This document shows, one piece after another, positions 40,271 through 43,668 of a stretch of DNA of 64,000 nt. Position 1 is the first letter of the stretch. Every line of letters begins with the position of its first letter. The position numbers were made by a program, and so were the translations under genes. This DNA comes from an uncultured bacterium. Lineage in GTDB: Bacteria; Fidelibacterota; Marinisomatia; Marinisomatales; Marinisomataceae. The notes beneath the pieces were generated by a model. The model did not search any database, had not been told where the DNA came from, and saw only the letters and a list, made by a program, of their open reading frames with translations. The DNA is taken from the NCBI GenBank assembly GCA_943788675.1, contig CALSRE010000001.1, positions 113,400 to 177,399 on the forward strand. The letters run 5' to 3'.

Positions 40271-40300
40271 GGGCTCTCAAACATGAGAGCCCTTTTCTTA
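40271..40300. terminator. Bidirectional rho-independent terminator between convergent genes
   Basis: GGGCTCTCA-AACA-TGAGAGCCC followed by TTTTCTTATTTT; preceded by AAAA for the opposite strand. Confidence 0.9.
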
Positions 40301-42043
40301 TTTTGATGTTTTCTTTTGAAGAGCAATTAAGTCTAGGACCATTTCTTCACTAGCAATTTCTCCTGACTCTTCAATAATACGAATTTGATTTCTAAGTTTT
40401 GAAATTTTATTCTTTATTTTTTGGTTTTCTAGCGTTTCAATACAGTCCGATAATATATTTAATTCGTTTTCCTTATCAGGAACATCAACAGCTAATAATG
40501 CGACTAGGTTTCTTTCTTCAGGGGCATTTCCAAGATATTCTAGTAACTGCGCAACATTTTTATATCTATTTGAATTATCAATTATAGTTTTAACAATATT
40601 ATAACATAGCTTATTATCAAACAAAGATAGTGATATATCTTTTGATAGCTTTTGGTTATGAATGAAAAGTTTCAGAATTTCAAATTGTGCCTTGTCAGAT
40701 TTTGAATCATAGTGTTTGATTTGATTTTTTTTATCTTTTTCATTTTTTTTATTATATCTTCTGTTTGACTTTAACTCTGCAAATCTTCCAATAACTTCAT
40801 TTTCAATAACACCAAGCTCATCTGATAGTCGTTTAATTAAATCATTCCTGATAATAACATCATCAACCAACTTGATTTCTTCAATACATTCATTTAAGAA
40901 TTTTGATTTATCCGAAGCACCTAATGAGTGTATATTTTTTTTATTGATAATATAGTTAATTGGGTGAAAAGCAGTTTTTATCAGCTCTTGAAAAGTTAGT
41001 ATACTATTTTCTTTCAACTTGAAATAATCATCAGGGTCAAGCCCGTCGCCTAAATCTATCACTCGTACTTCAAAACCATTTTGTAGTAAAATATATCCAG
41101 TTCTGATTGCGGCATTAACTCCAGCATTATCTGAATCGTATGTAAGGATAACTCTATTAGTATACTTAGCAAGTGCATTAGCATGCTTTGTAGAGAAAGC
41201 CGTACCTGAAGTAGCTAAAACGTTTTTAAAACCTTTCTCATAGAGTCTAAGGAAATCAGTTTGTCCCTCAACTAATAGCACATAATTTTTTTTTCTGATT
41301 TCTGGCATTGTTTGATAAGAGCCATAAAAAACTTTACTTTTTTGGAATAGTAATGTTTCAGGTGAATTTAAATATTTAACATCTTCTTTATCTGACAAGC
41401 TTCTTCCGCTAAAACCAATAACCTTTCCTGAAGGGCTGTAAAAAGGAAACATGATTCTATTTCTAAATCTATCTAAAAAACCCTTTTTACCACTGGAAAA
41501 TAGACCTGACTTTTCAATAACCTCTTCATCAAATTTTTGATTCAGTTCTTTATAAAGCAAATCCCATGAATCAGATGCAAATCCGATATTAAACTTTTCT
41601 ATAATTGCTTTATCAAAAAAACGATCATTTAAATACTTGCTAGCTTTTTTCCCAGCTGATGATTTAAGATTATTTGAAAAGAATAAGTATGCTAAGTTGT
41701 GTATCTCATATAGCTGATCATAAAGATTGCTCTGCTGTTCATTCCCTACTTCAATTATTTCAATACTATGCTTTTCAGCCAATGAACGGATTGCTTCTGA
41801 AAAACTTATTTTCTCATACTCAATTAAAAATTGAATGGCATTACCTCCTTGGCCTGAACCAAAGTCATACCACATATTTTTTTCAGGAGCAACGCTAAAT
41901 GATGGTTTAGTTTCTGAACGAAAGGGACTTAAACCAAAATAATTTCTACCTCTTTTTTTTAAATCTACGTATTGAGAAATAACATCAAAGATGTCTACTT
42001 CTTCTAAAACTCTATTAATTGTTTCTTGTGCTATTCTTCTCAT
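40298..42043 (-). CDS. dnaG: DNA primase with zinc-ligand-less N-terminal domain
   Basis: RIAQETINRVLEEVDIFDVISQYVDLKKRGRNYFGLSPFRSETKPSFSVAPEKNMWYDFGSGQGGNAIQFLIEYEKISF; Toprim LLVEGQTDFLRLYEKGFKNVLATSGTAFS, VILTYDSDNAG. Confidence 0.95.
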   Translation of the reverse strand: MRRIAQETINRVLEEVDIFDVISQYVDLKKRGRNYFGLSPFRSETKPSFSVAPEKNMWYDFGSGQGGNAIQFLIEYEKISFSEAIRSLAEKHSIEIIEVGNEQQSNLYDQLYEIHNLAYLFFSNNLKSSAGKKASKYLNDRFFDKAIIEKFNIGFASDSWDLLYKELNQKFDEEVIEKSGLFSSGKKGFLDRFRNRIMFPFYSPSGKVIGFSGRSLSDKEDVKYLNSPETLLFQKSKVFYGSYQTMPEIRKKNYVLLVEGQTDFLRLYEKGFKNVLATSGTAFSTKHANALAKYTNRVILTYDSDNAGVNAAIRTGYILLQNGFEVRVIDLGDGLDPDDYFKLKENSILTFQELIKTAFHPINYIINKKNIHSLGASDKSKFLNECIEEIKLVDDVIIRNDLIKRLSDELGVIENEVIGRFAELKSNRRYNKKNEKDKKNQIKHYDSKSDKAQFEILKLFIHNQKLSKDISLSLFDNKLCYNIVKTIIDNSNRYKNVAQLLEYLGNAPEERNLVALLAVDVPDKENELNILSDCIETLENQKIKNKISKLRNQIRIIEESGEIASEEMVLDLIALQKKTSK

Positions 42044-42555
42044 TATTTAAAAATATAGTCTTTGAAAGGTTCGAGTAAAACAAGAATCTTTGACTGATTA
42101 TATAAAATTTGGTACACATTATCAGAAATATATTTTTCAAAAATACCAGCAAATAATATGAGGGCAATAATGCCTTTTATGCCTCCAAGTATAAAGCCTA
42201 ACACCATATTCAAATTCTTATATGCATAAATACCACCATCAAGCAGAAACAGTAATAAGCTCGTTAGCAATCTTAATGCTATAATAGACATTAAAAATAT
42301 TATTGTAAGTGAAAAAATTATTATAATGGTCGCATTTATTGATATGTACTGTGATATCAAAAAAGATAGGTCAACATAAAAAAGAAGGGCCAATGCAATG
42401 CCAACAACTAGGTTCAAAAAATCTGTAAATGATTCTACAAATCCTTTTTGCATACCAAACACACTCATGATTAGAATAATCATTGAAAAAAGTAAATCTA
42501 AAATCATATTATGATAATAGTTCTTTAACAATAGATTGAGCGGTATTACCATCAA
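42043..42555 (-). CDS. CvpA-family membrane protein
   Basis: Polytopic; ILIMSVFGMQKGFVESFTDFLNLVVGIALALLFY. Confidence 0.75.
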   Translation of the reverse strand: MMVIPLNLLLKNYYHNMILDLLFSMIILIMSVFGMQKGFVESFTDFLNLVVGIALALLFYVDLSFLISQYISINATIIIIFSLTIIFLMSIIALRLLTSLLLFLLDGGIYAYKNLNMVLGFILGGIKGIIALILFAGIFEKYISDNVYQILYNQSKILVLLEPFKDYIFK

Positions 42556-42946
42556 TCTTACCAGCTCCCTGCTTCATCACATTGGGCATTACTTTACCAA
42601 AATCTTCCATACTAGTCGCACCAACTTCAGCTACAACAGAAGATACCAAGCTTCTTAAATCTTCCTCACTCATCATAGACGGAAGATAAACTTCCACAAA
42701 TCCTAATTCTCGTACTTCTTCCTCCACTAAATCATTACGGTTTCCCTTTTTATAAAGCTTAATAGATTCCTTGTGCTGTTTTGCTACCGTTTGGAGCACT
42801 TTAATTATTTCTTGATCAGATAATTCTTTTCTTAATTCAATCGCCTTATTTTTGCATTTTGATATAATAAGTCTTAATGCACCTGCTTTTTCTTTCTCTT
42901 TACTTTTTAAGGCCTGCATCATGTCTTGTTCTAATTTTTTAAGCAT
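42509..42946 (-). CDS. GatB/YqeY-domain protein
   Basis: MMQALKSKEKEKAGALRLIISKCKNKAIE, DFGKVMPNVMKQGAGKIDGNTAQSIVKELL. Confidence 0.92.
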   Translation of the reverse strand: MLKKLEQDMMQALKSKEKEKAGALRLIISKCKNKAIELRKELSDQEIIKVLQTVAKQHKESIKLYKKGNRNDLVEEEVRELGFVEVYLPSMMSEEDLRSLVSSVVAEVGATSMEDFGKVMPNVMKQGAGKIDGNTAQSIVKELLS

Positions 42947-43668
42947 TAGTTTTCTCTTTCATTAATTGTTTTCATGGCTAATAATATTTGATCCTGATTT
43001 GCTTCAAAACCAATAAATCTTCTTCCTCTTTTTTTTGCAACAACTCCCACAGCGCCTACATTCATAAAAGGATCTAAAATCCAATTCAATTTGAAGCTAC
43101 TTGCTTTGATAACTCTATGTATAATTTCTTCATAATCTAGATGAAACCATAAATTATCTTTGATATCGTCAGGCTTTGGATTATTAATATTTTTACCATT
43201 TACAATATAATTTTGGTTAAAAATATAATCATTGGTTTTAGTCGCAAACCAAATATCAGAAATTTTGTTTTTCCATTGTGACAGTTCAACATTTTCAATT
43301 TGTCTTTCAGCAGTAATTCTAGATTGCACAATAAATTTCTTGCCTAAAACAGAATGATACAGTGAAGATGATTCCCATGGGCAAATAATATAAATTGAAC
43401 CACTAGCTGTTAATACCCTCCTACACTCCTCCATCCATTCATCTATCCACCTAACATATTCTGTGTAGGTTAATGTATTATTAGGATCTAATGATGGCTC
43501 AGTTACTATTAAATCAATTGATTCATCAGGCAGCTTTTTTAGCCCTACTAGAGCATCTGATTTAAATAACCCTTCAGATAACTTGTCCTTAAAATGAATA
43601 TCAACCTCTGTCTTTATAGCAGGTAAATATTTGTTTAAGTCTTTTACAGTTAAAATATCTTTATTCAC
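42946..43668 (-). CDS. Orphan DNA methylase-family (N4/N6) protein with atypical catalytic motifs
   Basis: DALVGLKKLPDESIDLIVTEPSLDPNNTLTYTEYVRWIDEWMEECRRVLTASGSIYIICPW ... LDPFMNVGAVGVVAKKRGRRFIGFE. Confidence 0.8.
   Translation of the reverse strand: MNKDILTVKDLNKYLPAIKTEVDIHFKDKLSEGLFKSDALVGLKKLPDESIDLIVTEPSLDPNNTLTYTEYVRWIDEWMEECRRVLTASGSIYIICPWESSSLYHSVLGKKFIVQSRITAERQIENVELSQWKNKISDIWFATKTNDYIFNQNYIVNGKNINNPKPDDIKDNLWFHLDYEEIIHRVIKASSFKLNWILDPFMNVGAVGVVAKKRGRRFIGFEANQDQILLAMKTINEREN

Follow-up and report, generated by a model that had tools for sequence, protein, structure and literature searches.

The zinc that DnaG-type primases hold in their N-terminal domain is usually regarded as essential for locating primer start sites, and the role of the metal motif itself has been described as unresolved (PMC6163395). 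Template recognition by the phage T7 primase, for example, depends on its zinc motif (cited in PMC6163395). In phage T4, template bases stack on aromatic and histidine residues in the core of the zinc ribbon (PMC10359460). In the DnaG of C. difficile, the choice of start trinucleotide depends in part on the residue that directly precedes the third zinc ligand: a K70H substitution lowered priming at CCC and increased priming at CTA (PMC5204125). A search of the open-access literature returned no papers on a zinc-less cellular DnaG, although this is not proof of novelty.

Ribbon domains of this kind that lack zinc ligands were found on several types of mobile DNA (residues are numbered here as in the DnaG described below). 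The Toprim primases of Bacteroidota plasmids and mobile elements, including those in IMG/VR (L065, L066, L068, L070-L073, L078-L086, L088), are element-borne proteins of about 300 aa. They carry Ser/Arg/Asp at the first three ligand positions and various residues at the fourth, within the signature SP[FL]R.E..PSF.V...N.W.D[FY]. A second type is represented by the DnaG-like primases of Flavobacterium phages (laban6-1, FPSV-D35) and IMG/VR contigs (L103, L104, L106, L108, L111, L112). These have Ser at ligand 1, a variable residue at ligand 2 (Asn, Gln, Ser, Val or Thr), Asp at ligand 3 and Ser, Ala or Thr at ligand 4; a Trp precedes the Asp by two positions (Ser...Trp-x-Asp-Phe-Ser-[SAT]). A full-length DnaG with Ser/Asn/Asp/Ser, lacking Trp at position 58, is encoded on a Mycoplasmatota plasmid (L074, CP074574.1), and zinc-less domains also occur on gut and oral plasmids. 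The combination of Ser at ligand 1 with Trp58 and Asp60 is shared by nearly all of the zinc-less domains found; the patterns used to scan IMG/VR required the Trp and the Asp, so that counts there are biased. Judged from these sequences, the zinc-less ribbon is a recurring state that is mostly found on mobile DNA, and in one genus of Ca. Marinimicrobia it is found in a chromosomal gene.

The window analysed, a stretch of 64,000 nucleotides, belongs to a Ca. Marinimicrobia genome of 1.02 Mb (95.7% complete, two contigs). In it, dnaG occupies 40298..42043 on the minus strand as an intact open reading frame of 581 aa. The full-length protein scores 391.7 bits against the DnaG model TIGR01391 (cut-off 283.6). 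Its N-terminal ribbon domain (aa 1-100, 41744..42043, minus strand) fits the CHC2 zinc finger PF01807 with 101.5 bits (cut-off 24.9). This is followed by DNAG_N, the N-terminal part of the RNA polymerase domain (aa 121-244, 41312..41683, minus strand; PF08275, 135.7 bits), and by the Toprim region (aa 254-342, 41018..41284, minus strand). Alignment with solved DnaGs shows that the Toprim catalytic residues EG (E259-G260) and DxD (D303-x-D305) are intact, and the LDPDD motif is kept. Directly upstream lies cvpA (42043..42555, minus strand; PF02674), preceded by yqeY (42509..42946, minus strand; PF09424). A gene for an N6/N4-type DNA methylase (PF01555) is found at 42946-43668 on the minus strand, directly upstream of the three. 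The whole genome gives one match to PF01807 and one to PF08275, both within dnaG, and no second DnaG was detected with these two models. A normal DnaB of 450 aa is also encoded.

All four zinc ligands of the N-terminal domain are replaced. Ser39 (AGT, 41927..41929) stands for the Cys of ligand 1, Arg42 (CGT, 41918..41920) for the His of ligand 2, Asp60 (GAC, 41864..41866) for the Cys of ligand 3 and Ser63 (TCA, 41855..41857) for the Cys of ligand 4, all on the minus strand. In a gap-free alignment these residues fall exactly on the Cys/His/Cys/Cys of the Bacillus stearothermophilus DnaG zinc domain (1d0q), which puts the register of the four positions beyond doubt. Two neighbouring residues are also new on the same strand: Trp58 (41870..41872), which is fixed in the genus and present in most zinc-less domains found but is Tyr or Phe in zinc-bearing relatives, and Tyr59 (41867..41869), just before ligand 3, where proteins with the Cys-His-Cys-Cys (CHCC) set have His or Lys. 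In domain order, ribbon fold, Toprim residues, genomic place and status as the sole DnaG, the protein resembles bacterial DnaGs with a CHC2 ribbon (TIGR01391; 1d0q, 2au3), from which it differs in the four ligands and in Trp58 and Tyr59. It carries the zinc-less SP[FL]R...W.D signature of the Bacteroidota mobile-element primases and shares with them alone Arg42, which the phage domains have not kept. It is, however, a chromosomal protein of full length with DNAG_N and a C-terminal region, not a short element-borne primase. A pattern scan for close viral relatives of the whole protein found none. An initial annotation had described a housekeeping dnaG beside yqeY and cvpA, with Toprim motifs retained and the four ligands lost at these same codons, and had pointed to a similar pattern in Toprim primases of Bacteroides mobile elements; each of these points holds, the loss of ligands by virtue of the intact reading frame and the 1d0q alignment. 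The N-terminal domain is thus presumably metal-free.

The replacements are a character of the whole genus. Of 24 genus genomes, 22 match a DNA-level signature for the zinc-less domain, and all 22 that hold dnaG have the four replacements and Tyr before ligand 3. The two others are 72% and 56% complete, and no dnaG at all was found in them. Elsewhere in the phylum, none of the 221 genomes matches the signature; a backwards control pattern gave no match. Direct reading of 34 genomes of the same order, and of ten more from the class and the phylum, showed the CHCC set in all of them; Lys or His precedes ligand 3 in each of the 36 CHCC rows. Across the genus the codon for Ser39 is always AGY and that for Ser63 always TCN, each one base from a Cys codon (TGY), as expected for one ancestral change. 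At Arg42 and Asp60 the codons vary and the residues are constant. Sequencing error and strain-level decay are ruled out by the 22 genomes together with the pN/pS ratios given below.

The initial annotation had suggested zinc sparing as a cause, and the other zinc proteins of the genome bear on this. If the genus had dropped zinc from its proteins generally in a zinc-poor habitat, DnaG would be one case among several. The genus belongs to Ca. Marinimicrobia, known as marine bacteria, and has small genomes, which is in keeping with such a history. The genus genomes, at 0.4-1.0 Mb, are the smallest among those compared, with mostly 1.5-3 Mb in the order; zinc loss in DnaG and small genome size coincide, and a cause is not implied. 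The RecR zinc-finger model (PF02132) also had no match in the genome, although this short model matched only 9 controls and missed B. subtilis, a species in which RecR ought to be present; the genome here may lack RecR or encode an altered form. Against these points, RpoC retains the four Cys of its N-terminal zinc site, arranged as usual in two pairs, all four zinc-finger Cys are still present in LigA, and both CxxC pairs are intact in the C4-type zinc ribbon that lies at 1098-1895 of the window. General zinc sparing is therefore not supported, and the presence of zinc-less domains in gut and oral plasmids and phages also speaks against it; we regard it as unlikely. The zinc finger of LigA has an unusual C-x4-C spacing (NCPESGC...CLNINC) and scores 21.3 bits (Pfam cut-off 25.8).

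A horizontal origin is the next alternative. A zinc-less primase of a phage or mobile element, or its N-terminal domain alone, might have displaced the original gene at the locus, and the Ser...Trp-x-Asp signature is indeed also found in phage and mobile primases. In approximately unbiased (AU) tests, grouping the genus with phage DnaGs L104, L111 and L112 was not rejected (p 0.6). Other groupings of the genus with zinc-less DnaGs gave p 0.056-0.2, the value for all zinc-less rows together being 0.056. Some of the phage DnaGs sit on long branches, and any link with the genus could run in either direction. The rest of the evidence points the other way. The yqeY-cvpA-dnaG order is common to the zinc-less genus and its zinc-bearing relatives, in which cvpA adjoins dnaG across the order, and the ligands were therefore most likely lost in place. 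The zinc-binding domain of the genus is 49% identical to that of order relatives and about 40% to those of zinc-less phage DnaGs; for the polymerase domain the values are 39% (mean) and 24-30%. A tree of the polymerase domain, built with the zinc domain left out, places the genus within its phylum with support of 98/96. Residues typical of the order, such as YFGL and SVAP, are kept. Replacement from a mobile source is thus quite improbable. In-place loss of the zinc ligands is the simplest and most likely reading, and the gene is taken to be chromosomal and vertically inherited beside conserved neighbours; the AU tests do not decide for or against a link with phages.

The altered domain is not decaying, as its conservation shows. 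Mean identity across the genus is 90% in the zinc domain, 75% in DNAG_N, 83% in Toprim and 48% in the C-terminal domain. The pN/pS of the zinc domain is 0.13, falling to 0.06 for residues 35-72 around the lost site; elsewhere in DnaG it is 0.30, 0.22 and 0.52, the last in the C-terminal domain. These are ratios of raw proportions, given in that form because many synonymous distances were saturated, and they are good for comparing domains, not as absolute values. The earlier view that random decay was unlikely is borne out by this strong purifying selection. The zinc-less DnaG is real, genus-wide and under strong selection.

Animal TWINKLE, in which the primase-family N-terminus has lost both its zinc site and its priming activity, suggests another outcome. 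The domain might have dropped out of priming here as well and been kept as a module that supports the helicase or the fold, and the dependence of template recognition on the zinc motif in T7 primase is in line with such a loss. The DnaG of the genus differs from TWINKLE in keeping its catalytic residues and in being under strong selection. Conservation within the protein is highest in its zinc domain, and no other DnaG was found in the genome, so loss of priming is very improbable. Still less credible is binding of another metal through Asp60 and nearby residues: an Asp at ligand 3 is invariant across the genus, and almost every zinc-less domain found has one too, but it is just one clear ligand among Ser, Arg and Ser, and by general chemistry Arg would be unfavourable at a metal site.

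With these alternatives weighed, we consider it probable that one Ca. Marinimicrobia genus has inherited this housekeeping DnaG vertically, and that the zinc-ribbon domain of the protein has turned zinc-independent while the fold, Toprim centre and DnaB partner were kept. Structure prediction agrees with this. An AlphaFold model of the N-terminal domain without metal (m739da30c0567) has a pLDDT of 93; all five models exceed 91, and the blocks that cover the former ligand loops average 95-97. The input consisted of 13 sequences, among them zinc-less phage domains and one CHCC sequence; from seven near-identical close sequences alone the prediction was poor and the ligand loop was of low confidence. 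The model superposes on 1d0q with TM 0.83/0.86 and an rmsd of 1.1 Å over 92 residues, and it also matches 2au3. AlphaFold can draw zinc ribbons without metal, so the model shows the predicted compatibility of the metal-free sequence with the zinc-ribbon fold, not the stability of the apo-protein.

A mechanism can be outlined from the residues that changed. The four ligands were replaced by Ser, Arg, Asp and Ser together with the appearance of Trp58 and Tyr59, and the rest of the ribbon fold was apparently kept. Side-chain packing by Trp58 would take over from the metal in holding the fold, and the metal cross-link could be replaced by polar or salt-bridge contacts of Asp60 with Ser39 and Arg42. 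Trp58 and Tyr59 may lie at the face that contacts the template, or they may fill the space around the lost metal. The domain would still touch the single-stranded template and help to start primers. Since Tyr59 replaces a His/Lys residue known to influence start choice, the start-site preference may differ from that of zinc-bearing relatives, and an altered initiation specificity is possible by this analogy. We propose only tentatively that the sole replicative primase of the genus functions with a zinc-free domain for template recognition, which evolved in place and converged on the Ser...Trp-x-Asp solution of phages, plasmids and mobile elements, and that it has a changed start-site preference. 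Zinc seems to be dispensable in a DnaG domain that was thought to need it. A natural and strongly conserved zinc-free DnaG, if true, would allow the contribution of the metal to be told apart from that of the fold. In a cell apparently without another DnaG, it would also offer a simple system for the study of start-site choice.

Several other primases of the phylum depart from the usual form. One DnaG of the same order (L060, from G041) has the CHCC set, with one residue inserted between the third and fourth ligands (KCFGGCDAGG). Searches with the zinc-domain protein and PF08275 found DnaG in none of the four f16 g40 genomes (G159-G162; 79-93% complete) and did not find it in six of seven f9 g29/g30 genomes (G113, G114, G116-G119). 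Most of these genomes that were examined for DnaB have it, and the missing DnaG reflects either an assembly gap that recurs or a primase that has diverged or been replaced in these lineages. The DnaG of another f9 g29/g30 genome, G115 (L129), looks foreign. Two divergent primase-like proteins of 525 and 543 aa with a weak DNAG_N match (L131 from G229 and L132 from G046) were also detected in the phylum, and each of their genes is preceded by a similar neighbouring gene.
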